This document shows positions 5,584-33,893 of a stretch of 41,662 nucleotides of DNA, piece by piece. The stretch is from an uncultured Methylococcaceae bacterium (GTDB taxonomy: Bacteria; Pseudomonadota; Gammaproteobacteria; Methylococcales; Methylomonadaceae): NCBI GenBank assembly GCA_903873165.1, contig CAIQNQ010000125.1:1-41662 (forward strand), written 5' to 3'. Both the position numbers and the translations under genes were made by a program. Numbering within the stretch: position 1 is the first letter of the stretch; each line of letters opens with the position of its first letter. The notes beneath the pieces were generated by a model, which did no database searches, had not been told where the DNA came from, and saw only the letters and a program-made list of their open reading frames with translations.

Positions 5584-5601
5584 TTCTATTTAATTTAATT
5601 T

Positions 5602-6105: not shown

Positions 6106-6110
6106 CGAAA

Positions 6111-7079
6111 TCACCAAGGTTGTTTAGGAGAATTAAGCCCGCCCTGAGTAGCTTGCCACGCTTGCTCCCAGAGTTGAACTATGCGTCTGGACTCGGCTGC
6201 TTTCTCCGGATTACGGACTTTATTTCGCCAAGTGCGTAAACCATGCCAAGCTTGTTCTATTACTTTTGCTAAACGAGCATAAAGCAAACCATGCCATTTT
6301 CGATAATACAATAACTGACTTTGCATACGCCAAAGTGTTAACTGTTTACCAGAACTTGAAAATGCCAATTGATCAACTGTTTCTGAAGAAGCACCACCCA
6401 CATGGGTAATAACAATATCCGGCCAGTAATAAACCTTAAAATTCGATTGATTGATACGGCGACACAAATCAACTTCTTCGTAATAAAGAAAAAAACGTGG
6501 ATCAAATAAGCTTATTTGATCCACAATACTTCTACGTATGATTGCGAAAGCACCTGGAACCCAGTCAACTGGCGTTGCTGTTAATGGATCAGCCCAAGAT
6601 CGATCAAAACGTCCAAAAAAACGGGATGCTGGATAGCGATAGGCCAAACCTGATAGGGTTAAAATATCATTTAATAAAGTAGGGAATAATCGAGCTGAAG
6701 GTTGCCAACCACCTTCCGTGTCTTGCAAGAGTCCACCTCCCATTCCTGCATCGACATTAGCTTCCATGTGTTTCAATGCTCGCTCCAAAGTATCAGACGG
6801 CAATTGCGCATCGGGGTTAAGTAACACTAAGTATTGGCCTTGCGCTAATGTTAACGCCTTATTATTAGCATTACCAAAACCTAAATTTGACTCACTGACA
6901 ATTAACTTAACCTCAGGATATTCGTCACGTATGATCGAAACTGAATCATCGCGGGAAGCATTATCAACCACTATCACTTCATATTTGCCAGTCAATGTTT
7001 GCGCTCTCAGACTATCAAGACATGATCGCAATAGAGATGAACTGTTATAAGTGACTATAAAAACCGATAAATCTATCAT
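6111..7079 (-). CDS. GT2 glycosyltransferase (WbbL-like)
   Basis: 322 residues, with an inverting GT-A fold. Seen: the opening VFIVTYNSSSLL (6-17), EVIVVDNAS with the nucleotide-binding Asp, NLGFGNANN (65-73) and the DxD-type NPDAQ (88-92). A later acceptor-side region contains FFLYYEEVDLCRRI, which is typical of rhamnosyltransferases such as WbbL. There is no membrane helix, so it is likely peripheral on the inner membrane and extends the lipid-linked repeat unit. Its start ATG overlaps the stop of the upstream GT2 gene by one base (TAATG). The sugar donor cannot be read from sequence; rhamnose is only a family-based guess. Confidence 0.87.
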   Translation of the reverse strand: MIDLSVFIVTYNSSSLLRSCLDSLRAQTLTGKYEVIVVDNASRDDSVSIIRDEYPEVKLIVSESNLGFGNANNKALTLAQGQYLVLLNPDAQLPSDTLERALKHMEANVDAGMGGGLLQDTEGGWQPSARLFPTLLNDILTLSGLAYRYPASRFFGRFDRSWADPLTATPVDWVPGAFAIIRRSIVDQISLFDPRFFLYYEEVDLCRRINQSNFKVYYWPDIVITHVGGASSETVDQLAFSSSGKQLTLWRMQSQLLYYRKWHGLLYARLAKVIEQAWHGLRTWRNKVRNPEKAAESRRIVQLWEQAWQATQGGLNSPKQPW

Positions 7080-8272
7080 TAATTCTCCCTATCTGTGCGT
7101 TGCCACGCGGCATTATGCCGACTATTTGCCCATAGCTGGGGTATTAAAATTAATTTCCACAACACATAAGTGGGTACAGTTGCTATTACCTTTAATTCTT
7201 TTAAGCCCCCGCCACCCAAAAAAATCGCTATCAATACATGTAGAAAAACCAATAACAATGCTGCGCCTGCGTACCATTGCAAAATCGTTAGGGGAATCAG
7301 CAAGGTTAAAACCAATATAACCACATGAAAAGATAAAGGTAATAACAATAACTCAAACAAAGGTTCAACCAAATTCCATTTGCCAGTCATTACTGCTCTT
7401 AATAAACCTGGCACATGATCAATAATCAGTCGAAATCGACCACCTTCCCATCGGGTTCGCTGTGATGCGGCGTTTACATCCTGATTAGGTGATTCAGAAT
7501 AAACACAAACGGTATCGAGAAAATGTACTTTAAATCCCGCAGCAACCAAACGCAAATGGTATTCCATATCCTCTGCAATTGAACCTGCTTCATAAGGCAC
7601 GGCTTGAAGCACCTTTCGACTTAAAGCAAAACCATTACCTAGAATACCCACAGAAACATTTAAGTTTTCGCGGCCTAACAAGCGTAATTCATTAAAAGCT
7701 AACCAGGCAATAAAATTAAGTCTGGCTCGACGCGACTGATCTGGGTTAGCGATTCTATAACGACATTGAACTGCTTCAATGCCTTGCGCAAAAGCATATT
7801 GAAATTCACTAATCAATTCTTCATCAATACGGCTGTCTGCGTCAAGCACTAAATAACCATCATACTGATCAGCCAATAAAATTTTGAATGCATAATCAAG
7901 TGCGTAACCTTTACCTCGCTTAACCTCATCTTGACGCACTAAAACTCGGGCACCTGCTTTTGTTGCCCTTTCTGCAGTATCATCATGACAATTATCTGCG
8001 ATGACCACTAAATCACACGCACTGGTTTTATTTAAGCTAAGCTGTAAATTTTCGATACATGCCGCAATACCTTCTGCTTCGTTGTGCGCAGGAATAACAA
8101 TAACCAATTTTGGCAAAGCCGTCGCATTAATCGAACGATTTTTAATTAAACTTTTTTTGGGGGAAATAGCAGCAAGCGTTAAGGTTAGTAATTCAAGCGT
8201 ACCAGGCAAGGTTAAACCCAGTATCAATAAATGCACCAACACAAAAACTAAAAACAATAAATCATTAATCAT
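7079..8272 (-). CDS. Membrane GT2 glycosyltransferase (processive-type motifs)
   Basis: 397 residues. An N-terminal hydrophobic helix (about 5-35) is followed by a GT-A domain: VIVIPAHNEAEGI (57-69), VVIADNCHDD, KRGKGYALDYA, the DxD site LDADSRID (143-150), AEDMEY (233-238, with the catalytic Asp in the TED position) and QRTRWEGGR (271-279), the Q-x-x-R-W box of cellulose/hyaluronan synthase relatives. Two to three C-terminal membrane helices follow (about 310-375). The Q-x-x-R-W box is usual in processive enzymes, but many single-addition transferases of Wzx/Wzy clusters carry it as well. It lies 19 bases downstream of the GT4 gene at 8292 and is coupled to the next GT2 gene. Confidence 0.85.
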   Translation of the reverse strand: MINDLLFLVFVLVHLLILGLTLPGTLELLTLTLAAISPKKSLIKNRSINATALPKLVIVIPAHNEAEGIAACIENLQLSLNKTSACDLVVIADNCHDDTAERATKAGARVLVRQDEVKRGKGYALDYAFKILLADQYDGYLVLDADSRIDEELISEFQYAFAQGIEAVQCRYRIANPDQSRRARLNFIAWLAFNELRLLGRENLNVSVGILGNGFALSRKVLQAVPYEAGSIAEDMEYHLRLVAAGFKVHFLDTVCVYSESPNQDVNAASQRTRWEGGRFRLIIDHVPGLLRAVMTGKWNLVEPLFELLLLPLSFHVVILVLTLLIPLTILQWYAGAALLLVFLHVLIAIFLGGGGLKELKVIATVPTYVLWKLILIPQLWANSRHNAAWQRTDREN

Positions 8273-8291
8273 AATTAATGTAATCCTTTAT

Positions 8292-9518
8292 TCATAAATC
8301 AGCCAAGCGCTGAACGAACTTTTCAAAAAGATAGCGAGTATTTTTAGTTAAATCATAGTCTGACAATACCTTTGATCTACCAGCTTGGCCAATTTGTTTT
8401 CTTAATAAAGGATCGTTAACCAACTTTGCGATCGCTTCAACCAATCCATCTCTATCCGATGCAGCCACCAACAGACCATCTTCACCCGATTGAATCAGCT
8501 CAGGAACACCAGTAATAGCTGTGGTTATACAGGGAATTTCCATGGCCATGGCTTCCATCAAAACAACCGGCAAACCTTCGGCAAAACTAGGTAACACAAA
8601 AACATCAGCTGCTTGATAATAAGCTATTATATGATTTTGATCTACTGGTCCGGTAAAAATAACCTGCTCACTGATACCCAAAGTTTCAGCATAATGAATC
8701 AGGCTTTGCTGATCAGGCCCCATACCCACTAATGTAAGGGAAACTGATATGCCTTGTAGATTTAATTCTGCTATGGCCTCCAATAAAATTGCCTGACCTT
8801 TAGCTGACGTTAAACGTCCCACACAGAGCAATTTACATTCCCTGGTTTTCTCGGTTTTAACATGAGGAATAAAGCGTTGTGGATCAACGCCTAAGCGGCA
8901 CACATCAAATTTAGTCCACGCGCTAACTGGAGATAGTTTCATCACTTGACTTCGAGCATAATGACTTATGCAAAAAATAAAATCAGCAGCCAAAATCTTC
9001 TCTGGCAGATTATAACCTGCCGCATCATAGAATTCGTCAGGGCCATGCACAGTAAATGAGAAACTGTAACCAAAAACCTCTTTAACCAACAACCCAACCA
9101 TAGCTGCAGGCGTTGCGAAATGCACATGTAAATGCGTTATCTGCTGTGAACGCATCCACTGTCCTAATAACAATGCCTCAATCAAATAAAAAACATTAAA
9201 AAGTAAACGTTTAATATCAAAGCCAGCTAATTTAACTGCTTTTTTAAATCCTTTAACTAAGCCTATTGGCTTAAAAAACAAGGTTTTTACCAAAGCAATT
9301 CCAGCTTTTAAAATACCCTGAGACTTAACATAAAATGTATGTTCGGCCTCTTCTTTTTCCAAAGGCGTTAGTTGATCAATCTGTCGATCGGGTAGATTAA
9401 TTGAAGCAACAACAATTGATAAATCAAACTCACGAAGTTGCTGAACTTCTCGTAAGATAAAGGTGTGTGAATAAGCCGGATACTGACTGACTAAATAAGC
9501 TAAACGATGTTGCTTCAT
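8292..9518 (-). CDS. GT4 glycosyltransferase (WcaL/colanic-type)
   Basis: 408 residues, with a retaining GT-B fold. Seen: the N-terminal start LAYLVSQYPAYSHTFILREV, typical of WcaL/AmsK-like transferases; HLHVHFATPAA in the acceptor domain; LLCVGRLTSAKGQAILLEA at the start of the donor domain; and AEGLPVVLMEAMAM with the E-x7-E nucleotide-sugar site near residue 315. It is cytosolic or peripheral. The start ATG overlaps the upstream GT4 stop by four bases (ATGA). It adds one sugar of the repeat unit; donor not predictable. Confidence 0.87.
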   Translation of the reverse strand: MKQHRLAYLVSQYPAYSHTFILREVQQLREFDLSIVVASINLPDRQIDQLTPLEKEEAEHTFYVKSQGILKAGIALVKTLFFKPIGLVKGFKKAVKLAGFDIKRLLFNVFYLIEALLLGQWMRSQQITHLHVHFATPAAMVGLLVKEVFGYSFSFTVHGPDEFYDAAGYNLPEKILAADFIFCISHYARSQVMKLSPVSAWTKFDVCRLGVDPQRFIPHVKTEKTRECKLLCVGRLTSAKGQAILLEAIAELNLQGISVSLTLVGMGPDQQSLIHYAETLGISEQVIFTGPVDQNHIIAYYQAADVFVLPSFAEGLPVVLMEAMAMEIPCITTAITGVPELIQSGEDGLLVAASDRDGLVEAIAKLVNDPLLRKQIGQAGRSKVLSDYDLTKNTRYLFEKFVQRLADL

Positions 9519-10780
9519 GCTTTTGATCCCAATAACTCTTTATAAAATACCAATGCATCTGCAATTTTTGTATCCCAACTATAAGCCGTTTCAACCCTGC
9601 GACGACCTTCTTGGCCTCGGGACTTCCACAACTCAGGTTGTTGCCATACACTTTCAAGTTGTTCAATTAACCCTTTAATTACATCAGTTTTTCCTGTTGC
9701 TGGTAATTTAGCACCAACCCCTTCATCAACAATTTCTGCGGGGCCACCAAAATCGATAGCAATAACGGGCCTCCCAACAGCCATTGCCTCAAGTAATACC
9801 GCACCGCCCGATTCTCGTACAGATGGCAAGCAAAATACATGCGCTTGTTGCATAATAGGAGCAACTTCATTTAGTGGTAAATTACCTGTAAACAGTATTT
9901 TATCAACTATATTATATTCTTTAACTAAACGTTCCAAGTAAGCTCTCTCTGGACCTTCTCCTACTATGGTTAGGTATACAGGGAAATCAAGGCATTTTAA
10001 AGCTTCCAGTAACATGGCAATGCCTTTAAATGGCAGTAATCGCCCAACAAAAACAACTTGCAAAGGATTGGTGATAGTCGGCTCTTGTGGCCATGGAGAC
10101 GATTTAAACAAGCTCAAATCAACACCATTTTCTAACATAAATCGGCACTTAGATTGGTAACGCAATGGGATACTGTTTAATGTAAAACGAGTCGCTGTCA
10201 ATATTAGGGATGCATTACGAGTAGAACCGATTAAATAATCTACTAAGCGACCAACGTTACGTAATGGATACAGCCACTTAGATTCGGCTTTCATTATTTC
10301 TGGAAATGTAGTCGGTGAAGCAATACCGCCGTTCCATGGCCCTAAAACTAACGGAATACCCAGTTTATACAAACTTGTTGCCGCCATAGGAGACACAGGA
10401 GTCACGGCATGCACAACATCCCAAACTTTACCTGCTTTCAATAAGCGTTGGCAATGGCGAGTAGCAATCCAGTCATATACATAAAAATCAAGTGAAGCAA
10501 TTAAGAACTTTGGATGTTCACTACGTGGAAAGCAACGCGATGCAAAACGATATAGAGGTCCTGCAAACCATTCGGTATCAATAAAAATAATGTTTGAATC
10601 GTCTTCTGAAATACCGACTGCTTCCAAAGATGTTCTATTTCGCACATGGGTCAATAAAGTTACCTGACAAAGCGTGCTTAAACGCTGATACCATTCCCAA
10701 CCAATTTGAGAGACTGAACCCATACCTACGCCACATTGGTACGCAGAGAGTAATACGCGGATTTCGTGATTGTTAGCCAT
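9515..10780 (-). CDS. GT4 glycosyltransferase, first gene of left operon
   Basis: 421 residues, with a GT-B fold. Seen: an N-terminal glycine-containing turn (AYQCGVGMGSVSQIGWEW), the donor-domain start VVFVGRLLPFKGIAMLLEAL, the ILFTGNLPLNEV strand and the E-x7-E site ESGGAVLLEAMAVGRP near residues 330-345, so it looks active. It is the promoter-proximal gene of the run 10780 to about 2072, which then continues into the RsbW/STAS pair. No strong ribosome site precedes its ATG. It faces the divergent acyltransferase gene at 11251 across a 470-base gap. Confidence 0.87.
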   Translation of the reverse strand: MANNHEIRVLLSAYQCGVGMGSVSQIGWEWYQRLSTLCQVTLLTHVRNRTSLEAVGISEDDSNIIFIDTEWFAGPLYRFASRCFPRSEHPKFLIASLDFYVYDWIATRHCQRLLKAGKVWDVVHAVTPVSPMAATSLYKLGIPLVLGPWNGGIASPTTFPEIMKAESKWLYPLRNVGRLVDYLIGSTRNASLILTATRFTLNSIPLRYQSKCRFMLENGVDLSLFKSSPWPQEPTITNPLQVVFVGRLLPFKGIAMLLEALKCLDFPVYLTIVGEGPERAYLERLVKEYNIVDKILFTGNLPLNEVAPIMQQAHVFCLPSVRESGGAVLLEAMAVGRPVIAIDFGGPAEIVDEGVGAKLPATGKTDVIKGLIEQLESVWQQPELWKSRGQEGRRRVETAYSWDTKIADALVFYKELLGSKA

Positions 10781-11250
10781 AGATTAAATAGTCAATTGTA
10801 AATAGTTTTAAAAACGTATACGACGAAAAGAATTTATTAACAAATTTATCACCACTAACTTGACGACTTTATAAAATACAATATTATATGAATTTAATAA
10901 AGTGACAAAAAACTTAATTATGTTGGTGTTAACATGCCCATCATAATCATTTTCATTTCCAAACTCAAATAAATAGGTAATTTATTTATTATATGAATAT
11001 TACTCCTCTCAAACAAAAACTTCTGCGTGTTATATCACGATCACATAAGACGGTTCAAGATTAGAGTGCAGAGAGACATGTAGTGTTCTAATAAAACGGA
11101 CATTACACCCCACTACGATTACTGTTCGTTAGATAGTTCCTGCTAGTCACGAAGCAAATTAAATTAATTTAATTGTGCGAAAAATTGAAGTATGATAACA
11201 AATCATAACGTTTAGCTACCTAAAATTACTTTAATAAGTCCAATGCAAAT
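10781..11250. promoter_or_regulatory. Divergent promoter region between the left operon and the central block
   Basis: There is no gene here. It must hold promoters for both divergent directions. On the minus strand, TATAAT (10883-10888) is preceded by TTGTCA (10903-10908), but the 14-base spacing is poor. A perfect 18-base A+T palindrome lies at 11157-11174. On the plus strand, TATGAT (11191-11196) is a possible -10 with no good -35 box. No riboswitch or clear operator was seen. Confidence 0.35.
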
Positions 11251-12372
11251 ATGAACAAATTTAATTCTGCTTATCTTGATTTCGTCAGACTATTTGCTGC
11301 ATTAATTGTCTTTGTCGGGCATTTAAATTATGAATACTTGGTTGGCTCTATTTTAGGTGTTACTCATTTGCCTGGATTTGGTCCAGATGCAGTCATGGTT
11401 TTTTTTGTGTTATCGGGTTTTATTATTTCTGATGTTGTCAAGAAGCGCGAATCAGCGTTAACGGAGTATATTTCAGCCAGAATATCTAGACTATTCTCTA
11501 TTGCTTGGCCTGCTTTATTAATTACATTAATTTGTGATCAAATAGGACAAGCTATAAATCCTGATTATTATCATAGTGCTTGGTGGTTTAATAATTCACA
11601 TTTTATTCCAAGACTTGGAGTTAATCTATTACTTTTAAATCAGTTGTGGTTTTTAGATGTGGATGCTTTTTCAAATGGCCCATTTTGGTCTTTGGGGTAT
11701 GAGGCACTGTTTTATGCGATTTTCGTAGCTGTCGGATTTAATATAAAACATCGAAAGTCGACGCTTACGTTTTTGTGCCTAATTGCTGGACCCAAAATTT
11801 TAATTCTTTTTCCAATATGGCTCAGTGGATACTATTTATACAACTATGTAACCAAAATACAACTCTCACTTTTTACATCCATAATGTTATTTTTGCTTTC
11901 AATAATATTATACATCACCTATAAATCTTATTGTGATGAAGGCTTAATGTCGTCATATTTCACTAATCTAGTATTTGAAAAACAAAATAAATTTATCAAT
12001 AGCCTAGGTCACTCTAGATGTTTCCTAGATTTTTATTTTTTAAGTTCTTTGATTATTTTAAATTTTTTAGCTACTTACAATATTTTTAAACTAATTAGTG
12101 ATGATCGTATGCCAAAGATGGTATATAAACTGAATAGAACTATTGCTTTAGGTACCTTTGCAATTTACGCAGTGCATTACCCAATCGTTCATTGTATCGC
12201 AGCAATATCTGATTTCTATAAAATATCTCATACTTTTCAATCTAATACGATGATGTTTTTAATTCCATTAATCGTATCGGTTTTTGTCACTTATTATGGT
12301 AATAAGATTAGAATACCCATGGTTAAAATCATAAAACATCTAATAAATTCGATTTGGGCACGCATGACATGA
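11251..12372 (+). CDS. Acyltransferase family 3 (OafA-like) membrane O-acyltransferase
   Basis: 373 residues and about ten hydrophobic segments. Seen: the family-3 opening YLDFVRLFAALIVFVGHL, with conserved R13 and H24, and FGPDAVMVFFVLSGFIIS, where the usual glycine-rich GVxxFFVLSG block is recognisable. GPFWSLGYEALFY and a late FAIYAVHYPI segment complete the pattern. It acylates (often acetylates) sugars on the periplasmic face using a donor passed through the membrane. There is no C-terminal SGNH domain. It opens the plus-strand block and is coupled by an ATGA overlap to the next gene. It is notably A+T-rich compared with the flanking operons. Confidence 0.85.
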   Translation: MNKFNSAYLDFVRLFAALIVFVGHLNYEYLVGSILGVTHLPGFGPDAVMVFFVLSGFIISDVVKKRESALTEYISARISRLFSIAWPALLITLICDQIGQAINPDYYHSAWWFNNSHFIPRLGVNLLLLNQLWFLDVDAFSNGPFWSLGYEALFYAIFVAVGFNIKHRKSTLTFLCLIAGPKILILFPIWLSGYYLYNYVTKIQLSLFTSIMLFLLSIILYITYKSYCDEGLMSSYFTNLVFEKQNKFINSLGHSRCFLDFYFLSSLIILNFLATYNIFKLISDDRMPKMVYKLNRTIALGTFAIYAVHYPIVHCIAAISDFYKISHTFQSNTMMFLIPLIVSVFVTYYGNKIRIPMVKIIKHLINSIWARMT

Positions 12373-13565
12373 AAGATCCTCATTTAATGATTACTCCCTC
12401 TGTTCCTGCGTGGAAATCGGATAATGCACTGATCTTTGACCGAAAATTTTATGATGGTATGTTACTCTACTCTCAAAAATGGCCCGGAAAGTTAAGCTGT
12501 GTTATCTCATTAAGCACGACAAAACTCCCTGAATTTGGCACAGTCACTATAAATCCCAATAGTCTTCCTTTTAAATGCATCACTTTAGAAGAACATCTAA
12601 TAATAACAGCGCAGCATTTACAGGACGCATCAATTGTACTGGCTTCAGGGGATGCCGATAATCAACTGCATTTAAGTAAATTATGCAAGCAAAAAAACAT
12701 AAAGTGCGTCTACATTATTGAATACATACCTGAAACTAGGTATCAAATAGCCGCTTTAAGCACCTCAAATACAATTGTAAAACTGAGAAGATTTTTTTAT
12801 ATCTGGGAAAAAGAAAGAAAAAGACTAGCCTCCTTTAAACTCTGCGATGGTCTTCAATCAAACGGCACACCTGCCTATAATGAGTACAACTTTGTTGGTA
12901 ATAATTTATTATATTTCGATACTCGGGTTTTTGAAAATCAGATCATTGACGATGAGAATTTACAGCAACGACTTGATTACCTGTCTGAAAACAAACCATT
13001 ACGCATTGCATTTTCTGGACGTTTAATCAAAATAAAGGGAGCAGACCATCTTGTTGAACTTGCACTTAAACTAAAGCAGAACAACACTCCCTTCCAATTA
13101 ACAATATATGGTGCTGGTGAACTTTCAAGTGAAATGAAAGCCTATATTTTAAAACATAAGCTCGAAAATTATGTCTCCATGCCAGGATCTGTTGACTTTT
13201 ACAAAACACTTATTCCTGAACTTAAACAAACTGTTGATCTATTTGTATGCTTGCATCGACAAAGTGATCCTTCCTGTACCTATTTAGAAACCCTATCCTG
13301 CGGTATACCTATTGTGGGTTATAAAAACAGAGCGTTTGCCGGAATACTAGATAATTGTGATATTGGCTGGGGAGTTCCCTTAAATAATATTGATGAGGTT
13401 TGCCGTATTATCACCTATTTGCACAATAACAGATCAGAGTTACTTGATAAATCAAACAATAGTGCAGCTTATGCACGGCTACATGATTTTGAGTCTACTT
13501 TTCAAAGAAGAATTGATCAAGTTTATGATATTTACAAGGAAATCCCTAATAAAATTGAAACCTAA
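12369..13565 (+). CDS. GT4-like glycosyltransferase
   Basis: 398 residues. The donor half is recognisable: LRIAFSGRLIKIKGADHLVELALKL, FQLTIYGAGELSSEM and DPSCTYLETLSCGIPIVGY near residues 300-320, with the Glu that binds the nucleotide sugar. The N-terminal half is atypical and has few known motifs. Start: ATG at 12369, giving an ATGA four-base overlap with the acyltransferase; a TTG at 12354 would lengthen it by five residues and is less likely. It is probably co-transcribed with the acyltransferase, forming a two-gene unit that adds and modifies a side sugar (inference). Confidence 0.8.
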   Translation: MKDPHLMITPSVPAWKSDNALIFDRKFYDGMLLYSQKWPGKLSCVISLSTTKLPEFGTVTINPNSLPFKCITLEEHLIITAQHLQDASIVLASGDADNQLHLSKLCKQKNIKCVYIIEYIPETRYQIAALSTSNTIVKLRRFFYIWEKERKRLASFKLCDGLQSNGTPAYNEYNFVGNNLLYFDTRVFENQIIDDENLQQRLDYLSENKPLRIAFSGRLIKIKGADHLVELALKLKQNNTPFQLTIYGAGELSSEMKAYILKHKLENYVSMPGSVDFYKTLIPELKQTVDLFVCLHRQSDPSCTYLETLSCGIPIVGYKNRAFAGILDNCDIGWGVPLNNIDEVCRIITYLHNNRSELLDKSNNSAAYARLHDFESTFQRRIDQVYDIYKEIPNKIET

Positions 13566-14151: not shown

Positions 14152-17100
14152 ATGAACAATAAATATTCAGTTAAATTAGTATTAATCGCACTTTTTTCAT
14201 TTTTTGTTACATCCAATACAACTAATGCTGCAACACCCACAGTATCAATTTCATCAGACTCCACAATGATAACAGCAGGTGCTACCACTTCATTTACATG
14301 GACATCAACGGATGCCAACTCCTGCGTTGCTTCTTCTGGTTGGGCGGGAAATCAGCCATTATCAGGCACTTTTGTAACTCCACCTTTATCTTTTCCTACC
14401 CTTTATAAACTCACATGTTCTGGGTCAGGCGGGAGTACAACTCAATCAGTGAACATCAATGTCACCCCATTAACGAGTAATGTAGGATCAAAAATAGGTA
14501 TCAACCTAAGCTTCATTAACGCTTCGAGTAATAGGGATTTAACATTTATCGATGTTACGAAGATAGCACGCGGATTTGCTTCGCTGAAAGCACCATGGGA
14601 TCCTATTAATTACCCAGTCCCAACGGATGCGAATGGTTGGCCAACTTCAGATTTTGGTATATATTTCATAACCAGTGCTGGTGACCCGTTAAATCGACCT
14701 TTAAGCTCTACATTCCCCAGTATGTTTGGCACTTATAAACTTAGTTTTACTGGTCAGGCTACAGTGAATGGCTATAACTGCTGTCAAGTTCAGAACAAAG
14801 CCTATAACGCAGCGACCAACACCACAACTGCTGATATTGTTGTTAGACCTACAGATCCTTATGTCGCTCTTACATTTAGCAATACCAACAACGGCATTCA
14901 AAACCTACAGTTGTTAAGGCCAGGTTATCCTATCGGAACAACCCAAGTTTTTACTACGGAGTTTTTAAATGCAATCGCGCCTTTCAGCACATTACGCTTT
15001 ATGGAGCCGTTGCAAACCAATATAAATCATGGCTCAACATGGAGTGCAAGAAAGCTTAAAACTGATCCTACCCAAAGTGACGCTAGAGGTATCGCGTGGG
15101 AATATGTGATAGATATTGCGAATGCGACTAACAAAGACATTTGGATTAATATTCCTGATCAAATTGATCTTAATGATTCAACGACTAATAATTATGTTAT
15201 CCAACTTGCCACTTTAATTAAAGGATCATTGAACAATGGCATCCATGTTTATATTGAATACGGTAATGAAACCTGGCTAGATACTTCGCTAAATAACCCC
15301 AATATCACTGCAGCTGTGGCCGATGTTACTTCAGGAACCGACACCACTCTTAATTTTGACAATACCAACAATCAGTGGTATTGGAGCTATCGAAGGGCGG
15401 CACATCAAACTTTAAAAATCAGCCAGTTATTTGCTCAGATCTTTGGGCCAGCCGCAATCAATACTATAATTAGACCCGTTTATATGTCTCAATATGCCGC
15501 TCCCTTTGTAATGGAAGACATATTACACTATTTAAATACAAATTTTGGCGCGCCCAATAATTATCTATATGGGATAGGTGGTGCTCCGTACTTTTTACCA
15601 CAAACTAGTTTTACTGATACAACTAGTTTATTAAGTACATTGCAAGTCAATCTTAATAAATTAAACCTTAGTGCTGCTCCGCTTCCTGCCTATAACGGTG
15701 GTTTTGTTTGGAACGGAATTAGTCAAAAAAGTTTAGCTGATTATTATGGCCTAAAAACCCTGATGTATGGAGGCGGACCCGACCTAAGAAATCGACCAGA
15801 AAGAGTCGTTATTGAACAGACTGCAGCCACACCTGAAATGGCAACGATGATTAAATCTGAACTGACTAATTTTTTAAGCTGCAATACTGATTTATTTGTT
15901 TACTACAAGTTATCAGCTCCAGAGGGTAACACATCATTCGGGATTTATGAAGATGTGGCTTTACCAACAGAAAAAAGTAAGATGTTTATTGACCTAGCCG
16001 CTGCACCCCTTACCAATTTACCCACTTGCAGTGGATCTGTAAATGCAACTCAACAACCCGTTACCATTGTAGCCACCCCACCTACCATTGTAGCCACCCC
16101 GCCACCTCCGACTTTGTCGATAAGTACTAAGACAGCATTAATCGATAATGGCGCTACCACTTCATTAACATGGACATCAACTAATGCTGGTTCCTGCGTT
16201 GCTTCATCAGGTTGGTCAGGAAATCAGCCAGTATCAGGCACTTTTGTAACACCACCATTATATACTGCAACTCTCTTCACATTAGCATGTACTGGAGCAA
16301 ATGGAACAACAACACAGTCTGTAACAATTGGAGTGACACCTCCCCCTCCCCCTATAGTTTCGATAAGTGCCGCTCCATCTTCAATCGATAATGGCGATAC
16401 TACTTCCTTAACATGGACATCAAATTTTGCAAGCTCCTGCGTTGCTTCATCTGGTTGGTCAGGTAATCAACCACTATCAGGCACTTTTGTAACTCCGCCT
16501 TTATCTTTTCCTACCCTTTATAAACTCACTTGTACTGGGCTTGGCGGTAGTACAACGCAATCAGTTAACATCAATGTGACCCCGTTAACAGGCACCGCAG
16601 GATCAAAATTAGGTATTAATCTAAGCTGGGTTAATGATTGGGGTAATCGGGATTTAACCTTTGTTGACGTGATGAAAATAGCTCGGGGCTTTGCTACGGT
16701 AGCTGTGCCTTGGGATCCCACCAAATACCCGGCTCCCACGGATGCTAACGGTTGGCCGACTACAGATTTTGGCGTGGTTTTTTTAAGCAATGCGTCAGAC
16801 CCACTGAATCGTCCACTGAATGCTACTTTCCCCAGCATGTTTGGCACCTATAAACTAAGTTTTACTGGCCAAGCTACCGTCAGGGGCTATAACTGCTGTC
16901 AGGTTAATAACAAAGTTTATAATGCGGCAACTAACACCACAACGGCTGATATTGTAGTTGGGCCTGCAGATACTTCTATGACACTAACATTCACCAATAC
17001 TAACAATGGCGTTCAAAATCTACAACTGTTTAGACCTGGTTATCCTATTGATACCACTCAGGTATTTACCACAGAATTTTTAAATGCCATTGCACCTTTT

Positions 17101-18156
17101 AGTACTTTGCGCTTTCTGGAACCACTCCTAACCAACAATAATCATGGCTCAAAATGGGATGCAAGAAAGCTTAAATCCGATCCCACTCAAAATGATCTGA
17201 GGGGTATTGCCTGGGAATATGTTATCGATTTAGCTAATGCGACTAACAAGGATATTTGGATAACTATTCCTGATCAAATTGATCTTAATGACCCAACGTC
17301 TAATAATTATATTACTCAGCTAGCCACTTTAATTAAAGGCTCTTTGCACGATGGTATCCATGTCTATGTTGAATATAGCAATGAAACATGGAATGGGGGG
17401 TTCACACAAAGTTGGACCAATATAGCGGCAGCAATTGCGGATGTTAATTCTGGAACTGACACTACCCTAAATTACGATAATTTCAACAATCAATGGTATT
17501 GGGGCTTTCGAAGAGCGGCACATCAAACATTAAAAGTTAGTCAATTATTTGCAGAGGTTTTTGGTCCTGCCGCCATCAATACGACCATTAGACCGGTTTA
17601 TATGTCTCAATATGTCCAACCCATCATCATGGAAGATATCTTAAGATATCTAAAGACGAATTTTGGCGCGCCCAATAAATATCTATATGGTATAGGGGGA
17701 GCGCCTTATTACGCAACAGCACAAACTAGTTTTACAGATGCCAGTAGTTTATTAAGCGCATTGCAAATTGGTCTTAACCAAATAACCCCAGGTGCTGCAC
17801 CTCTTCCTGCCTATAATGGCGATCTTGTTTATACAGGCATTACCAACAAAAATATAGCTAATTATTATGGTCTAAAAACCCTAATGTATGAGGGTGGCCC
17901 AGATTTGAGTAACCAGCCGAATAAAGCCCTTAGTGAACAGACTGCAGCCACACCAGAAATGGCAAATATGATTAAATCTGAATTGACTCGCTTTTTAAGC
18001 TGCGACAATGATTTATTTGTTTACTACAAATTATCAGCTCCAGCGGGTGACGCACCTTGGGGCATTTATGAGGATGTAGCTTTACCAACAGAAAAGAGCA
18101 AGATGTTTAATGACTTAGCTACAACGCCACTAGCCAATTTTACCACTTGTAATTAG
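14152..18156 (+). CDS. Secreted protein with tandem Ig-like and glycosidase-like domains
   Basis: 1334 residues. An N-terminal signal peptide (cleavage about 26) is followed by Ig-like repeat 1 (29-107), catalytic-like domain A (112-about 640), a Pro/Thr linker with a 21-base direct repeat (ACCATTGTAGCCACCCC at 16063 and 16084), Ig-like repeats 2 (654-730) and 3 (734-810) and domain B (817-1334). Units A and B are offset by 705 residues (2115 bases) and are closely similar. Each large domain has a GH clan-A-like NETW motif (E373, E1078). Domain B also has LMYEGGPDL (E1247), matching a nucleophile position; domain A reads LMYGGGPDL (G540), so it may be catalytically dead. The Ig-like repeats (SCVASSGWSGNQP) are probable sugar-binding or spacer modules. 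No anchor or sorting signal was seen. It likely trims or binds the locus polysaccharide, as PslG does in Pseudomonas (inference). The family assignment is not certain. Confidence 0.75.
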   Translation: MNNKYSVKLVLIALFSFFVTSNTTNAATPTVSISSDSTMITAGATTSFTWTSTDANSCVASSGWAGNQPLSGTFVTPPLSFPTLYKLTCSGSGGSTTQSVNINVTPLTSNVGSKIGINLSFINASSNRDLTFIDVTKIARGFASLKAPWDPINYPVPTDANGWPTSDFGIYFITSAGDPLNRPLSSTFPSMFGTYKLSFTGQATVNGYNCCQVQNKAYNAATNTTTADIVVRPTDPYVALTFSNTNNGIQNLQLLRPGYPIGTTQVFTTEFLNAIAPFSTLRFMEPLQTNINHGSTWSARKLKTDPTQSDARGIAWEYVIDIANATNKDIWINIPDQIDLNDSTTNNYVIQLATLIKGSLNNGIHVYIEYGNETWLDTSLNNPNITAAVADVTSGTDTTLNFDNTNNQWYWSYRRAAHQTLKISQLFAQIFGPAAINTIIRPVYMSQYAAPFVMEDILHYLNTNFGAPNNYLYGIGGAPYFLPQTSFTDTTSLLSTLQVNLNKLNLSAAPLPAYNGGFVWNGISQKSLADYYGLKTLMYGGGPDLRNRPERVVIEQTAATPEMATMIKSELTNFLSCNTDLFVYYKLSAPEGNTSFGIYEDVALPTEKSKMFIDLAAAPLTNLPTCSGSVNATQQPVTIVATPPTIVATPPPPTLSISTKTALIDNGATTSLTWTSTNAGSCVASSGWSGNQPVSGTFVTPPLYTATLFTLACTGANGTTTQSVTIGVTPPPPPIVSISAAPSSIDNGDTTSLTWTSNFASSCVASSGWSGNQPLSGTFVTPPLSFPTLYKLTCTGLGGSTTQSVNINVTPLTGTAGSKLGINLSWVNDWGNRDLTFVDVMKIARGFATVAVPWDPTKYPAPTDANGWPTTDFGVVFLSNASDPLNRPLNATFPSMFGTYKLSFTGQATVRGYNCCQVNNKVYNAATNTTTADIVVGPADTSMTLTFTNTNNGVQNLQLFRPGYPIDTTQVFTTEFLNAIAPFSTLRFLEPLLTNNNHGSKWDARKLKSDPTQNDLRGIAWEYVIDLANATNKDIWITIPDQIDLNDPTSNNYITQLATLIKGSLHDGIHVYVEYSNETWNGGFTQSWTNIAAAIADVNSGTDTTLNYDNFNNQWYWGFRRAAHQTLKVSQLFAEVFGPAAINTTIRPVYMSQYVQPIIMEDILRYLKTNFGAPNKYLYGIGGAPYYATAQTSFTDASSLLSALQIGLNQITPGAAPLPAYNGDLVYTGITNKNIANYYGLKTLMYEGGPDLSNQPNKALSEQTAATPEMANMIKSELTRFLSCDNDLFVYYKLSAPAGDAPWGIYEDVALPTEKSKMFNDLATTPLANFTTCN
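14236..18153 (+). repeat. Intragenic tandem duplication, about 2.1 kb offset
   Basis: The segment about 14236-16041 (Ig-like repeat 1 plus domain A) is repeated at about 16351-18153 (Ig-like repeat 3 plus domain B). The copies share long identical stretches at DNA level (for example the NGWPT, SMFGTYKLSFTGQATV and RRAAHQTLK regions) but differ at many positions. They are therefore a true diverged duplication and not an assembly artefact. A third Ig-like unit (16111-16350) lies between them. Confidence 0.85.
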
Positions 18157-19987: not shown

Positions 19988-20830
19988 ATGGAAAATAAAA
20001 CTGAATTCACAATAGATTACCTCAATCAAATTGTTTCGATTGATCAACTAAATAAAATCGCTGAAGAAAATTCAGAAAAATATAAAAATGCTCAACCATT
20101 CCCCCATATTTATTTTGATAATTTTTTTCCTAAAGATTTTCTACTAAAAGTTGCTGAAGAGTTTCCTGAATCTAATTCTGAAACTTGGCAAAAGTTTGAT
20201 GCTGCGGCTGAGAAAAAACTAGCATCAAAAAGTGACGCTAATATTGGACCCTACGCTAAAGCTTTGATTGGGGTTATGAATTCTGGGATATTTATCGAAT
20301 TCATTGAAAAATTATCTGGAATAAGTGGGTTAATACCTGATCCACACTTGACTGGCGGCGGATTACATCAAATTATGCCGGGTGGAAAATTATCCTTGCA
20401 TGTTGATTTTAACAAATATAAACGTAAGAACTTAGAAAGGAGGCTTAATATTCTTGTTTATCTAAATGATAATTGGGAGGATTCTTACGGTGGTTATTTG
20501 GAATTATGGGATAAAGATGTCACCAAAGCAGAAGTCAAAATACTGCCAATTTTAAATCGGATGGCGTTATTTTCAACATCAGAAACCTCTTGGCACGGAC
20601 ATCCTGACCCCCTTACATGCCCTGCTAACCGTTCTAGAAGATCGGTTGCTCTTTATTATTATACAGTTGGTCGTCCTGAAGAAGAACAAGCAGACGAACA
20701 CACTACTGTATTTAAAGAACGGCCCGGTGAAAATTTAGCCGAATCCAAAATAGACAAACAAAAGCTAAAAAATATTGTCAAAGATTTTATCCCTCCTATA
20801 TTAATTAAATTAATTAAAGGGCGTAAATAA
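19988..20830 (+). CDS. 2-oxoglutarate/Fe(II)-dependent oxygenase (prolyl-4-hydroxylase-like)
   Basis: 280 residues, cytosolic. Seen: the iron-binding H-x-D in LSLHVDFN (H138, D140), a distal His in TSWHGHPDP (H203 or H205) and the 2-oxoglutarate-binding Arg in RRSVALYYYT (about 217-218). LNILVYLNDNWEDSYGGYLELWD is the usual double-stranded β-helix strand region. Family members hydroxylate proteins, sugars or small molecules. Related genes sit in LPS and polysaccharide clusters, where the substrate is often a sugar or lipid, but here the substrate is unknown. Start: ATG with AGAGG upstream. It ends the plus-strand block and converges on the acyltransferase gene at 20866. Confidence 0.85.
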   Translation: MENKTEFTIDYLNQIVSIDQLNKIAEENSEKYKNAQPFPHIYFDNFFPKDFLLKVAEEFPESNSETWQKFDAAAEKKLASKSDANIGPYAKALIGVMNSGIFIEFIEKLSGISGLIPDPHLTGGGLHQIMPGGKLSLHVDFNKYKRKNLERRLNILVYLNDNWEDSYGGYLELWDKDVTKAEVKILPILNRMALFSTSETSWHGHPDPLTCPANRSRRSVALYYYTVGRPEEEQADEHTTVFKERPGENLAESKIDKQKLKNIVKDFIPPILIKLIKGRK

Positions 20831-22014: not shown

Positions 22015-23397
22015 TTACCACATTCCAGCAATGGGTGAACCAAAACCTAATAATATTCGCCCATAAAGCAGAGTACCTAATAATCCAGCAAAAAAGATAG
22101 TTATATAGATATCTTGACGTATACTTGACAAGCCTTCACGAAAAACACCAAATGCGATAGCAAAATAATACGGTACATCATTCAAAGCGACCGCAATAAT
22201 CGCTCCTGGTATCCCAAAATAGGAAAAACCTAGAGGAATTGCTATTAAATTGTAAAGAAATCGCAAAAAGTGCCCAACTGTTGCATAACTAAGTTTTCCA
22301 ATAGCATTCAGTGCCTGATCCATTGTTTGCGATAACACATTGGACCAAACCCCAGTTGCCAGTAATGGTAGCATCCAAGCAGCCTGAGCGTAACGCTTAT
22401 CATAAAGAAATAAAATCAATATATCTCCAAAAGAAGCCAAGATTGCAAGACCAAATGCTAATAGCATCAAAAAACGTTTTCGAGTGTGTAATAATTGATC
22501 ACGAAATTGAGGACGTGGCATATTTACCAAACGTGATAAAGTTGGAAAAACTATTTTTCCGCTTAATGCACCAACCATTTGCCTAGGCACATCCGATAAG
22601 GTTAACGCAATGGCATAAATACCCAACAGCTCAAGTGAAAATATTTTCCCCAAAATCATGCGATCAGCTTGTCCGGCTAAAAAGCAGAGTGCTGTAGATA
22701 TAAATACCCACTTACCAAAGTAAATGAGTTCCCTAATCGCTGCTTTATCCCAACATAAACGATTATGTTGACCCGGTATTAGGAAATGAGTCCAGATTGT
22801 GTGTACCAGTTGAGAAAAAAATGTTCCTGCGACTAAAGCCCAAATAGAGGGACTCACCCATGCCCAAGAAATCATAATGGCTATACAGACTAATTGTGTA
22901 GCCAATTCCATAAAAAAAAGTTTTTTTACGGCCATTTGTCGATAGCTTACAAACAGTCCAGTAGAACTAAAACCAGAAATAATTGAATTAACAGCAATAA
23001 CAGGAATTAACCAAGTCAATTCAGGTGTTTTATAAAATTGCGCAACAGGATAAGCAATGACTATTGCCACTATACAAATCCCAACCCCTCTGATTATTTG
23101 TAAAGTCCACGCAGAGTTAAGAAAATCAGGATCATCGCGCTTAGTTCGAATAATGCTAGTGCCAACACCAATATCTGAAAACAAACCTAATCCCATGATT
23201 ATGACGTTAACCATGGACATCAATCCAAACAAGTCAGGAAACAGTAATCTAGTTAAAATCAGATTACTTCCAAATCTAAGTGCTTGGCTCAAGCCATAAT
23301 TTACAATGGTCCATAAGGCGCCTGTGGTAGCCACCTTTTTTAGTTCAGATAATTCATGATCACTAGTTGTTTGATTTGTTGTTTGGCCGTTGGTCAT
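22015..23397 (-). CDS. wzx: Wzx-type polysaccharide flippase
   Basis: 460 residues, about 12-14 membrane segments. It belongs to the polysaccharide-transport (PST) branch of the MOP superfamily: ATTGALWTIVNYGLSQALRFGSNLILTRLL at the start, then LFPDLFGLMSMVNVI and FSDIGVGTSIIRT. It flips the undecaprenyl-linked repeat unit to the periplasm. Start: ATG at 23397; a TTG at 23415 would add six residues and has no better ribosome site. It pairs functionally with the polymerase at 23504 and the Wza/Wzc pair at 26.6-29.7 kb. The symbol is by function. Confidence 0.87.
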   Translation of the reverse strand: MTNGQTTNQTTSDHELSELKKVATTGALWTIVNYGLSQALRFGSNLILTRLLFPDLFGLMSMVNVIIMGLGLFSDIGVGTSIIRTKRDDPDFLNSAWTLQIIRGVGICIVAIVIAYPVAQFYKTPELTWLIPVIAVNSIISGFSSTGLFVSYRQMAVKKLFFMELATQLVCIAIMISWAWVSPSIWALVAGTFFSQLVHTIWTHFLIPGQHNRLCWDKAAIRELIYFGKWVFISTALCFLAGQADRMILGKIFSLELLGIYAIALTLSDVPRQMVGALSGKIVFPTLSRLVNMPRPQFRDQLLHTRKRFLMLLAFGLAILASFGDILILFLYDKRYAQAAWMLPLLATGVWSNVLSQTMDQALNAIGKLSYATVGHFLRFLYNLIAIPLGFSYFGIPGAIIAVALNDVPYYFAIAFGVFREGLSSIRQDIYITIFFAGLLGTLLYGRILLGFGSPIAGMW

Positions 23398-23503
23398 TAA
23401 CTTTTTTGGTTTCAAGGTTACAATTTATAAACAATTTAACGCCTTTTTTATTCTTAATTTTCAATATCTAGCACAGCATCAAAAATCAAACCTAAGCCAT
23501 TAA

Positions 23504-24889
23504 TTAAAGCACTTTTCGAAATTTAAATTTACGAGAATCAATTTCAACTTTACTTTTACTACCACCCACATCCCCATCCCAGTTACTAGTTCGCAAATAA
23601 GCATCTGATAAACCGGTAATTATAAAAAATAATGTGCTACTTTGATATTGCATGGAAACAGTAATATCAGCAATGAAAAACATTAGATAAATTGCCGCTA
23701 AACTATAAGCTAACGAACTCCCTCTGGGTTCAGAAATTGGTTGAGCCATGCCATGACTTATTAAACGCCCCATCATGCCAAAGATAATGCCCAACAATAA
23801 AATGATAGCCACAAAGCCATGATTTAAAAATACCAGCAAAAAATGATTGTCGATTGATTCAAATTGAGGATCTTCTGGCCATTGCATCAAACCCCAGCCC
23901 CACCAGAACTTTTCTGTTGCAACATCCATATAGGTAGTAATCAGCTCATAGCGATAGCAAGCCGTTTCTTGATTATCATCATGGGCATTATAACGACCTA
24001 CTGAAGCATAGTCTATAAACACACCCATCAAAGGAATTCCGAGACCAACAAATACCGTTATAACTGCCGTCATAGCCAAAGCAGGCTTTTTAGATCGACC
24101 AATAATTGCAATACCCGCTGCCACAATTCCTGCCAACCACTGGCCTTTTCCTAAGGTTGAGAGTACACCACCCAACATCATCAACGTAATAAGTTGTGCT
24201 GGTGTAACCCACGGCAACCACTGTAACTGTTTTATTTTATGAGGCCAGGCATCCGACCATTGTAGCCAACGTTGTAAGCGATAACCAACAGCCATAACGA
24301 TGCCAGCTATTAAACAATGTCCATAAGGACCCGATGCCCTTGCTAAACCAAAGCGAAACGTTGTCATCCAACCTTGGCCTTGTCCAGGAAAAAATCGGCT
24401 AAAGAGCATTTGCCATAAATTAGCCGACATTTTATTTTCGTATAAATTCATCACAAATACGAAACACAAACACAACACTATGCTTTTAGCGAAGTCGTAG
24501 CGCAAATTAAATGGCTCAATAAGGCTTTTGGCAAATAGATAAGGAAACAACACAGAGGTTAATTGATTGAACATTAAATTTTGCGCATCGGAATATCCAG
24601 ATGCCCTAAATTCAGAAAATGACACAGCAAACGCATAAAATCCCACCACTAAATCAGTGTAACTAAAGCGATAACCTGGTGTACCCTTCATTAAAAATAC
24701 TGCAAATAAAGCCACTGACGCAGCTTGACTACAGTTAGGATCAGGAAGGCCAGGTGTAACTGCGTAAAAATAATCTGGCAATAGCATTAATATGGGAATA
24801 TAACCCCAAATAAAAGCTTTTGATACCGATTGCTTTTGAGCGACGTGATATACCCAAAACCCTGCCAAATATACGATATAAGATAGCAT
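23504..24889 (-). CDS. wzy: Wzy-like O-antigen polymerase/ligase family membrane protein
   Basis: 461 residues with about 11-12 membrane segments and a large periplasmic loop in the second half (about 290-350, YNAHDDNQETACYRYELITTYMDVA). The GPYGHCLIAGIVMA segment and the WWGWGLMQWPEDP loop are typical of the O-antigen ligase/polymerase superfamily (WaaL/Wzy). As a single copy near Wzx and Wza, it is most likely the repeat-unit polymerase. Polymerase and ligase cannot be told apart reliably from sequence alone. It starts four bases after the hexapeptide acetyltransferase stop. Confidence 0.78.
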   Translation of the reverse strand: MLSYIVYLAGFWVYHVAQKQSVSKAFIWGYIPILMLLPDYFYAVTPGLPDPNCSQAASVALFAVFLMKGTPGYRFSYTDLVVGFYAFAVSFSEFRASGYSDAQNLMFNQLTSVLFPYLFAKSLIEPFNLRYDFAKSIVLCLCFVFVMNLYENKMSANLWQMLFSRFFPGQGQGWMTTFRFGLARASGPYGHCLIAGIVMAVGYRLQRWLQWSDAWPHKIKQLQWLPWVTPAQLITLMMLGGVLSTLGKGQWLAGIVAAGIAIIGRSKKPALAMTAVITVFVGLGIPLMGVFIDYASVGRYNAHDDNQETACYRYELITTYMDVATEKFWWGWGLMQWPEDPQFESIDNHFLLVFLNHGFVAIILLLGIIFGMMGRLISHGMAQPISEPRGSSLAYSLAAIYLMFFIADITVSMQYQSSTLFFIITGLSDAYLRTSNWDGDVGGSKSKVEIDSRKFKFRKVL

Positions 24890-24893
24890 AAAT

Positions 24894-25472
24894 TTATGCG
24901 TTAATAACGCGTGCAGGTATACCTACCGCCACAGCACCCGCAGGTATGTTTTTTGTGACCACTGCATTTGCACCGATAATTGCACCTTCGCCTATAGTAA
25001 CTCCGCCTAGAATAGTGACACCTCTACCAATCCAAGCATTACGTTTTATTACAATCGGTTTACCTTGATGACCCGTGTATCGCACAGAACTACCTACTAT
25101 CGCCCGATGATTAGCATCTCGAATACTTGAATATTCACCGACCATAACGCCTGCTTCCAAAATAATCTCAGAATAAGCCACTAAATGAACACCACGAGAC
25201 AAAACCACCTCATCACCAATGTCAATAACGCCGTTTTCTTGTGTTTCAAAATAAAGATCTCGGTAAAAAAAAAGATTCTTACCAAGATTGATTCTTCGAG
25301 TACCGTGTATTTCAGGGGTACTCAGCACCACAACCGAAACATCAAGCGTACCGTTCAGTGCACTTTTTAATCGTGCACTGGCCCATAATCTACCTATAGC
25401 ATCCAATGGGTTGATCAATTTGATGATTGGTTGTAAAGCAGAAACCAATATCTTTTTAACTAGATAGCTCAT
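24894..25472 (-). CDS. Hexapeptide-repeat acetyltransferase (maltose/galactoside-type)
   Basis: 192 residues, with a left-handed β-helix. Seen: GVHLVAYSEIILEAGVMVGEY, then IRDANHR (the active-site His is in this loop), RNAWIGRGVTILGGVTIGEGAIIGANAVVTKNIPAGAVAVGIPARV. The last part is the standard end of the LacA/WcaF/NodL family. It would acetylate a sugar hydroxyl using acetyl-CoA in the cytosol. Its ATG overlaps the stop of the GT2 gene by four bases (ATGA). It is a second soluble acetyltransferase besides the one at 5602. Confidence 0.85.
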   Translation of the reverse strand: MSYLVKKILVSALQPIIKLINPLDAIGRLWASARLKSALNGTLDVSVVVLSTPEIHGTRRINLGKNLFFYRDLYFETQENGVIDIGDEVVLSRGVHLVAYSEIILEAGVMVGEYSSIRDANHRAIVGSSVRYTGHQGKPIVIKRNAWIGRGVTILGGVTIGEGAIIGANAVVTKNIPAGAVAVGIPARVINA

Positions 25473-26467: not shown

Positions 26468-26610
26468 AACTTCATCACCGGATTAAATGCACTTGGGCAA
26501 TCCTTCAACCGAACAGGTTTTAAATAACACTCACTCATATTAGATTGCAACTTATAACTCATTATTATCATAGTGAAAATATAAAATTAATAATGTGAAT
26601 TTAATAATTA

Positions 26611-28743: not shown

Positions 28744-28747
28744 ATAG

Positions 28748-33889: not shown

Positions 33890-33893
33890 TAAA

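Follow-up and report, generated by a model that had tools for sequence, protein, structure and literature searches.

The open reading frame (ORF) at 14152-18156 (+) in a 41,662-nucleotide stretch of DNA from an uncultured Methylococcaceae bacterium (contig CAIQNQ010000125.1 of assembly GCA_903873165.1; hereafter the window) encodes a 1334-residue protein with two copies of one predicted glycosidase-type barrel. The second copy (B) keeps both catalytic glutamates, and the first (A) carries glycine at the nucleophile position. Such live-plus-dead tandems seem to have arisen separately in related bacteria. The reading we favour, with moderate confidence, is that copy B is a glycosidase acting on the producer's own exopolysaccharide (EPS) and that copy A, a pseudoenzyme, has been retained as a module for binding or positioning.

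Organization of the tandem protein

The ORF is uninterrupted by any stop or frameshift. Its two copies, which the initial annotation had described as aligning along their whole length, aligned over 610 residues with 75% identity (E = 0), and their cores were 77% identical at the DNA level over 1548 aligned sites. The N-terminus (residues 1-27; 14152-14232, +; MNNKYSVKLVLIALFSFFVTSNTTNA) resembles a signal peptide, judged by eye from its basic start, hydrophobic core and small-residue end, and the protein is probably secreted. An Ig-like repeat (14233-14484, +) precedes the copy A core (14485-16032, +), a putative pseudoenzyme that AlphaFold2 predicts to be a clan GH-A-like barrel and that has no strand-7 Glu. 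A Pro-rich linker with two further Ig-like repeats (16033-16599, +) leads into the copy B core (16600-18153, +), for which AlphaFold2 and DSSP indicate an intact clan GH-A-like barrel that contains a beta-sandwich insertion. The Ig-like repeats, so named by eye, share a motif found at residues 57 (SCVASSGW), 681 and 762. The repeat ahead of copy A had no Pfam match above its cut-off, and residues 646-809, which are mostly Ig-like repeats, matched a virion structural family in PHROGs (E 2.6e-10) and two more families weakly.

A fusion of two separate genes during assembly is very improbable. The genome assembly comprises 298 contigs, which would favour such an error, but the longest exact stretch common to both ORF halves is only 32 bases, so that a repeat-driven join is unlikely, and tandem ORFs are also present in other genomes of the genus.

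Predicted fold and structural matches

AlphaFold2 models of the cores reached pLDDT 95.1 and pTM 0.94 for copy B and pLDDT 93.8 and pTM 0.93 for copy A. DSSP assigned eight barrel strands to copy B (core numbering). Strand 4 (255-259) is followed by N261-E262, the acid/base-type Glu with its preceding Asn, and strand 7 (426-429) by E431, the nucleophile-type Glu. A beta-sandwich is inserted between strands 1 and 2 (core residues about 57-144). With VIA-align, copy B matched GH51 (Z 23.6), a bacterial heparanase that we take to belong to GH79 (Z 21.9) and GH39 (Z 20.6), with 7-14% identity among the matches listed; copy A matched GH51 chains (Z 22-24) and the PslG structure 9g17 (Z 18.7). The 50 fold matches listed were GH-A-type enzymes with Z 18-24. 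Foldseek TM-scores by query length were modest (0.13-0.36 among the first 48 matches listed), and the 14 Foldseek matches with E ≤0.001 included beta-amylases and other barrels. The assignment of both cores to clan GH-A-like (beta/alpha)8 barrels, with the two Glu of copy B after strands 4 and 7, is well supported by these models and agrees with the barrel fold that had been expected from the sequence. Within clan GH-A, the predicted barrel, the Asn-Glu after strand 4 and the Glu after strand 7 are shared with GH51, GH79 and GH39, the nearest families by fold, from which the window family differs by its beta-sandwich between strands 1 and 2, low identity and lack of a Pfam match.

Sequence family

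None of 86 family members matched any Pfam family at E 0.01, and the barrel family thus looks undescribed as far as Pfam goes, as the initial annotation had suspected. Searches of Pfam, NCBIfam and PDB sequences with the whole protein returned no family, the weak Pfam rows lying below their cut-offs, and every match in PDB profile searches had E ≥0.46. Membership of GH39 or GH51 was considered and rejected on family profiles (Pfam and profile-profile comparison, with small sets). Neither GH39 (PF01229) nor GH51 (PF22848) had a match in the bacterium's own genome, and profile-profile probabilities were 0.3% against a small set of six GH39 sequences and 0.1% against a GH51 set of four sequences that itself matched PF22848 weakly. 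No phage record matched copy B at E 1e-5. Relatives occurred in at least 25 plasmid records; among the matches listed these were named hypothetical, calcium-binding or cadherin-like or had no gene, and they also included one "family 16 glycosylhydrolase" and one ABC substrate-binding protein. Since these names disagree, they offer no consistent name to borrow.

Catalytic positions and their conservation

The NETW motif starts at residue 372 in copy A and 1077 in copy B, placing the retained acid/base-type Glu of copy A, E373 (15268-15270, +), in alignment with E1078 of copy B (core 262; 17383-17385, +), which follows strand 4. YEGGP starts at residue 1246 in copy B, where E1247 (GAG, core 431; 17890-17892, +) is the nucleophile-type Glu after strand 7, and its counterpart YGGGP starts at 539 in copy A, where the nucleophile position is G540 (GGA; 15769-15771, +). 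These residues and codons are as first annotated. GGA and GAG differ at two bases, so one miscall cannot explain G540. Of 124 rows, 116 cover the nucleophile position; G540 is the only Gly there and the other 115 have Glu, in a set that is pattern-biased and counts some copies twice.

Copy A carries further lesions. The DWG of copy B (D829, W830, G831), which all 10 live close copies compared share, aligns with ASS at residues 124-126 (14521-14529, +), and in the three acid/base-dead copies compared either W and G or only G has changed too. The Asn after NETW, shared by 95% of the remaining copies counted, is replaced by L376 (15277-15279, +), with one residue deleted nearby.

Single-domain relatives keep the E1247-type Glu, a regularity on which the reading of copy A as a catalytic loss had been made to depend. 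Both Glu were present in 17/17 distant relatives from the first homolog search, several of which are paralogues or near kin of one another. A class-wide sample of 23 matches outside the own genome, five of which cover neither residue, had the acid/base Glu in 16/16 and the nucleophile Glu in 18/18 where the positions were covered. In the taxonomic family of the window, all 29 non-tandem copies showing both positions keep both Glu (6 of 35 non-tandem rows do not show both). These three sets came from whole-protein or profile searches; the related-locus search used patterns including NE and YEGG, so that Glu conservation among its loci is biased. The weak match L149 has the acid/base Glu, the one position read there.

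Copy A might still be an enzyme, with E373 working through a substrate-assisted or alternative-nucleophile mechanism in a protein of two activities. The retained acid/base Glu and the intact predicted fold leave room for such weak or substrate-assisted chemistry, and the C-terminal domain of PgaB, once thought inactive, proved to be a hydrolase, according to a passage of PMC5933820. We nevertheless regard altered chemistry as unlikely: copy A also lacks DWG, the Asn after NETW and one nearby residue, and it has no new acidic residue at or beside the lost nucleophile position. In addition, the other tandem lineage described below lost the acid/base Glu instead, a pattern more in keeping with lost catalysis than with a single new chemistry.

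Other tandem proteins and evolution of the dead copies

In the taxonomic family, each degenerate copy seen belongs to a different one of five tandem proteins. Besides the window protein these are G011 (1238 aa), G033 (1241 aa), G032 (846 aa, cut by a contig end) and G016, in which only the last ~45 residues of the first copy are visible. The window copy has lost the nucleophile, whereas the dead copies of G011, G033, G032 and G016 have lost the acid/base residue through a change of NE to NR or NK plus a short deletion. Their partner copies are cut by the contig end in two cases, that of G032 showing the YEGG Glu only and that of G016 neither Glu. The tree requires two separate changes, the nucleophile loss and the acid/base loss, with the four acid/base-dead proteins counting as one event and not four.

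Pairwise dN/dS, which averages dead and live branches and was computed at high dS, was 0.11-0.18 for dead copies, 0.16 for copy A against copy B (dS near 0.93) and 0.13-0.15 between species for parallel dead copies. At positions where the 10 live close copies otherwise agree without exception, copy A differs 20 times; when each live copy was left out in turn, its own count was 0 to 12. Tajima's test gave no significant rate excess (chi-square 2.8). The window and L037 dead copies are both altered at six positions that do not otherwise vary among live copies (hypergeometric p 0.006).

The excess of changes at otherwise invariant sites is what a functionless relic, drifting since the duplication, would be expected to show. 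Such a relic is improbable, however, given the low dN/dS between the two copies and the result of Tajima's test, the uninterrupted frame, the confidently predicted fold and the retention of parallel dead copies between species at low dN/dS. That live and dead copies have been paired repeatedly, and that different catalytic residues were hit, suggests a function for the dead copy.

Genomic setting

The gene lies inside an apparent EPS cluster. On one side (22015-29749, -) are genes for export and polymerisation, comprising a flippase, a Wzy_C protein, an acetyltransferase, a glycosyltransferase, a Wzc-like and a Wza-like protein. Pfam identified Polysacc_synt_3, Wzy_C and Poly_export/SLBB there; the Wzc-like protein had no Pfam match at 1e-5 and, like the glycosyltransferase and acetyltransferase, was labelled by eye. 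On the other side (3517-13565), the same cluster contains a priming transferase/WecG fusion, glycosyltransferases and acyltransferases. Three of these proteins were scanned, giving Bac_transf, Glyco_tran_WecG, Glycos_transf_1 and Acyl_transf_3, and the rest were labelled by eye. A single-domain relative in G018 also has EPS-gene neighbours, 72-76% identical to the Wzx, Wzy and GT4 proteins of the window.

Of the 41 loci compared (six of them repeat views of places already included), 8 had at least two window-cluster-like proteins close to the family gene, among them loci in Ramlibacter and Laribacter genomes. Near the tandem genes of G011 and G033, BLAST found none of the window's cluster proteins; the two neighbours scanned for each were a UvrD helicase, a VWA protein, a Zip transporter and a laccase-like protein. 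For the wider family, the 115 nearest-neighbour proteins included Polysacc_synt_3 in three and Wzy_C in two, as counted in the best 25 of 115 families, outside which single-member glycosyltransferase families may lie. A linkage to EPS across the whole family was rejected, EPS families being infrequent among these nearest neighbours.

That infrequency beside distant relatives, together with the CBM2 cellulose-binding domain of at least one of them (L010), would accord with a protein that breaks down foreign polysaccharide, as a nutrient source or in competition, and that sits in an EPS cluster only incidentally. We consider this rather unlikely, because the gene lies within an EPS cluster both here and in G018, cluster-like proteins recur near family genes elsewhere, and the genome carries a pmoA-family gene, from which the organism is probably a methanotroph.

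Proposed function and known systems

In the preferred reading, copy B, having both catalytic Glu, would most likely be a retaining glycosidase that cuts the product of the surrounding EPS cluster. Copy A, with fold and acid/base Glu kept and the nucleophile and nearby active-site residues lost, may hold or feed the chain to copy B or anchor the enzyme in the matrix; we propose that continued affinity for the same polymer is the probable reason for its maintenance.

Lactase-phlorizin hydrolase, a eukaryotic protein with lactose as substrate, has four tandem GH1 domains, some of them inactive, and the window protein resembles it in having tandem glycosidase-type domains of which one is putatively inactive. 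A further likeness is to the FGF co-receptor beta-Klotho, whose tandem GH1-like domains both have a conserved Glu replaced, as described in part of PMC10229096. The window protein differs from it in its bacterial host and in its intact copy B, which keeps both catalytic Glu, so that the Klotho-like pattern of each domain lacking one Glu was not found. The GH1 sequence family of beta-Klotho is presumably distinct from the window family, which has no Pfam match.

Hydrolase genes inside EPS clusters are an emerging trend, according to a section of PMC5933820, and the window gene resembles those of PslG (GH39), PgaB and BcsZ in being a candidate glycosidase gene within such a cluster. Unlike PslG, it showed no profile relationship to the small GH39 set, and the passages of PMC5933820 considered here mention no protein in which a domain is joined to an inactive duplicate of itself. 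In the open-access PMC literature, we recognised neither a bacterial live-plus-dead glycosidase tandem nor this family.

A widespread barrel enzyme family that lacks a Pfam model merits description by itself. We tentatively suggest that, within this clan GH-A-like family, tandems of live enzyme and pseudoenzyme have evolved two or more times in gammaproteobacterial methanotrophs, with different Glu lost and with live and dead copies in opposite order, and that the dead partner, by binding the cell's own polymer, may set how the live copy trims EPS. The tandems supply matched live, nucleophile-dead and acid/base-dead domains, a natural experiment on how a pseudoenzyme may help an enzyme to act on a polymer, and copy B is a candidate EPS-trimming enzyme for methanotrophs.

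Tandem protein and its two copies

The open reading frame at 14152-18156 (+) encodes 1334 residues comprising, in order, a signal-peptide-like start, an Ig-like repeat, a first glycosidase-like domain (copy A), a Pro-rich linker bearing two further Ig-like repeats, and a second glycosidase-like domain (copy B). Judged by eye from its N-terminus, the protein is probably secreted. The Ig-like repeats (14233-14484 and 16033-16599) had no Pfam match above the cut-off, and residues 646-809 match a PHROGs virion structural family.

The initial annotation's description of tandem copies was borne out, with 75% identity between copies A and B across 610 aligned residues, and so were its residue assignments: the NETW Glu is present in both copies (E373 in A, E1078 in B), whereas the YEGG Glu of copy B (E1247, GAG) is Gly in copy A (G540, GGA). 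These codons are unlike at two bases, which rules out a single miscall, and the longest exact stretch common to the two halves is 32 bases, which makes a repeat-driven assembly join unlikely.

Predicted fold

Each copy was modeled in one AlphaFold2 run fed with an 86-row alignment of the window sequences and loci from a pattern-seeded scan, giving pLDDT 95.1 and pTM 0.94 for the copy B core, and 93.8 and 0.93 for the copy A core. In the copy B model, barrel strands lie at core residues 4-7, 169-171, 218-223, 255-259, 330-336, 364-367, 426-429, and 472-475, numbered by our reading of the DSSP string. N261-E262 (E1078) lies just past strand 4 and E431 (E1247) just past strand 7, in agreement with the clan-A barrel that had been proposed; Glu residues after strands 4 and 7 are the hallmark of clan GH-A. 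A beta-sandwich insert at approximately residues 57-144 of the copy B core (window 16600-18153), between strands 1 and 2, is possibly a built-in binding module.

VIA-align rescored 1000 Foldseek-chosen chains, among which barrels generally score well (972 at Z >= 8 for copy B); GH51 arabinofuranosidases were top for copy B (Z 23.6, 3.1 A across 300 residues), followed by bacterial heparanase (21.9), GH39 (20.6), and GH5/GH164/GH44 (18-19). The list for copy A was almost identical, with PslG at Z 18.7. Foldseek's own scores are modest: the best E-value was 8.1e-6 (GH26 lichenase), 14 matches had E <= 0.001, beta-amylases were among the matches, and the TM-score by query length was below 0.4.

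Family distribution and conservation of the Glu pair

None of 86 family members matched any Pfam family at E 0.01, the window protein had no NCBIfam match, no significant sequence relative was found in the PDB, and profile comparison with GH39 and GH51 sets, both small, detected no relationship. The pattern-seeded scan of genome contigs found at least 523 relatives, and the titles of the 79 loci retained include Proteobacteria, Planctomycetota, Acidobacteria, Chloroflexi, Bacteroidetes, Armatimonadetes, Cyanobacteria, Verrucomicrobia, and Paenibacillus/Cohnella. Since the Pfam, NCBIfam, and PDB searches were empty and the scan loci span many phyla, the family is widespread and lacks a Pfam model. 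At the Pfam level this supports the suggestion that it may be undescribed. One distant relative, scanned whole, carries a CBM2.

As the idea of a residue lost from copy A requires, single-domain relatives do keep the Glu: the initial search for relatives gave 17 distant ones, and 17/17 have both residues. A class-wide sample had matches in 13 of 369 genomes, own genome included; among the 23 matches outside it, the acid/base was Glu in 16/16 covered and the nucleophile in 18/18 covered, with two class-sample matches (genome G063) overlapping the 17-relative set. Matches within the window's taxonomic family came from 25 genomes out of 237 (own counted) and made up 45 rows, 10 of them in tandem proteins; among the 35 others, both positions are visible in 29, every one of which has the two Glu. 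In the pattern-seeded set of 124 rows, which is biased and has some copies counted twice, conservation was likewise near-complete, with E 111, R 5, K 2, and six uncovered at the acid/base, and E 115, G 1, and eight uncovered at the nucleophile.

Degenerate copies and their retention

All degenerate copies found are in tandem proteins from one genus. In the window the nucleophile-less copy A comes first; in genomes G011 (1238 aa), G033 (1241 aa, locus L037), G032, and G016, the last two genes cut by contig ends, the dead copy is second, with NR/NK replacing NE, a short deletion, and an intact YEGG. The partner copy is intact in 3/3 fully seen (window, G011, G033); only the YEGG Glu is visible in the G032 partner and neither residue in that of G016. 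In a 28-row tree, copy A groups at support 100/100 with copy B plus the single-copy gene of contig C137; a separate clade (100/99) holds the four acid/base-dead rows. Because the dead copies fall in separate clades and their state requires two changes, the live-plus-dead tandem most simply appears to have arisen twice, by loss of different residues.

The C137 gene (G000:C137:21884-24013; L002, L159), a second family gene in the window's own genome, is 85% identical to copy B and adjoins genes like the window's hybrid histidine kinase. Four Ramlibacter loci (L047, L048, L050, L053) have two nearby family genes on opposite strands, with both Glu present where read.

Pairwise dN/dS values from a Nei-Gojobori script were 0.16 (A vs B), 0.18 (A vs C137), 0.11 (A vs G018), 0.13-0.15 among acid/base-dead copies, 0.17 (L037a vs L037b), and 0.10-0.14 for live pairs; they are rough, since any pair with a live member averages in a live branch and dS is high, at 0.66-2.3 in several pairs. 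Ten live close copies share 220 invariant sites; copy A departs from these at 20 and the three acid/base-dead copies compared at 21 or 22, and the live copies themselves, each left out in turn, at 0 to 12 (copy B 8, C137 9). The L037 dead copy is altered at six of copy A's 20 sites (about 1.9 expected; p 0.006), and four of the 20 fall in the 11-site set common to the three acid/base-dead copies (p 0.011); among the shared sites are those of the DWG loop, which follows strand 1, and of the loop behind NETW. A and B did not differ significantly in Tajima's relative-rate test (47 vs 32 unique changes, chi-square 2.8).

Genomic context

The tandem gene is surrounded by genes for glycosyltransferases, a priming transferase, a flippase, a Wzy_C protein, and Wza-like export. 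The protein at 3517-5583 (-) fuses a WecG/TagA glycosyltransferase to a Bac_transf priming sugar transferase. Near the glycosidase gene is one for a 2OG-Fe(II) oxygenase (19988-20830, +), and another oxygenase gene of this kind adjoins a Ramlibacter family gene (L047:10621-11700, -). A STAS-like small ORF (1104-1442, -), a HATPase-like ORF (1506-1997, -), and a hybrid histidine kinase with a receiver/PP2C-like protein (30038-35117) stand at both edges of the exopolysaccharide (EPS) cluster and, by eye, look like partner-switching control.

In genome G018, a single-domain relative (843-aa frame) adjoins genes 72-76% identical to the window Wzx, Wzy, and GT4 proteins. In a BLAST comparison with window proteins, 8 of 41 loci (35 distinct places, several loci short) hold at least two cluster proteins nearby (L160, L043, L047, L048, L053, L055, and, with just two, L038 and L057). 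BLAST found no window cluster proteins near the G011 and G033 tandem genes, whose scanned neighbours (two each) are a UvrD helicase, VWA protein, Zip transporter, and laccase-like protein; the two scanned in G032 are GT9 and a Wzy_C protein. Among 115 nearest neighbours, from 64 of the 65 loci L047-L111, Polysacc_synt_3 occurred three times and Wzy_C twice (among the first 25 of 115 families listed). The G011/G033 neighbourhoods and the rarity of these neighbours speak against a general rule of EPS linkage.

Proposed function

The source organism is probably a methanotroph, because its genome carries a pmoA-family gene. Lactase-phlorizin hydrolase is a further parallel for tandem glycosidase domains. 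The nearest architectural parallel found is beta-Klotho, in which, according to PMC10229096, each of the two tandem GH1 domains has a replacement at one catalytic Glu and both are regarded as inactive and serve as a receptor. In the window protein, copy B keeps both Glu. PMC5933820 speaks of glycosidases within EPS clusters as an emerging trend and relates their proposed roles to polymer length, to a secretion-competent form, and to clearance of excess periplasmic polymer. The likeliest arrangement is that copy B would cut the cell's own polymer while copy A, with its fold and much conserved sequence kept, would hold it. Our confidence is slightly reduced by the modest Foldseek scores, and we consider it somewhat probable, as a whole, that copy B is a live glycosidase acting on the organism's own EPS and copy A a polymer-holding pseudoenzyme.
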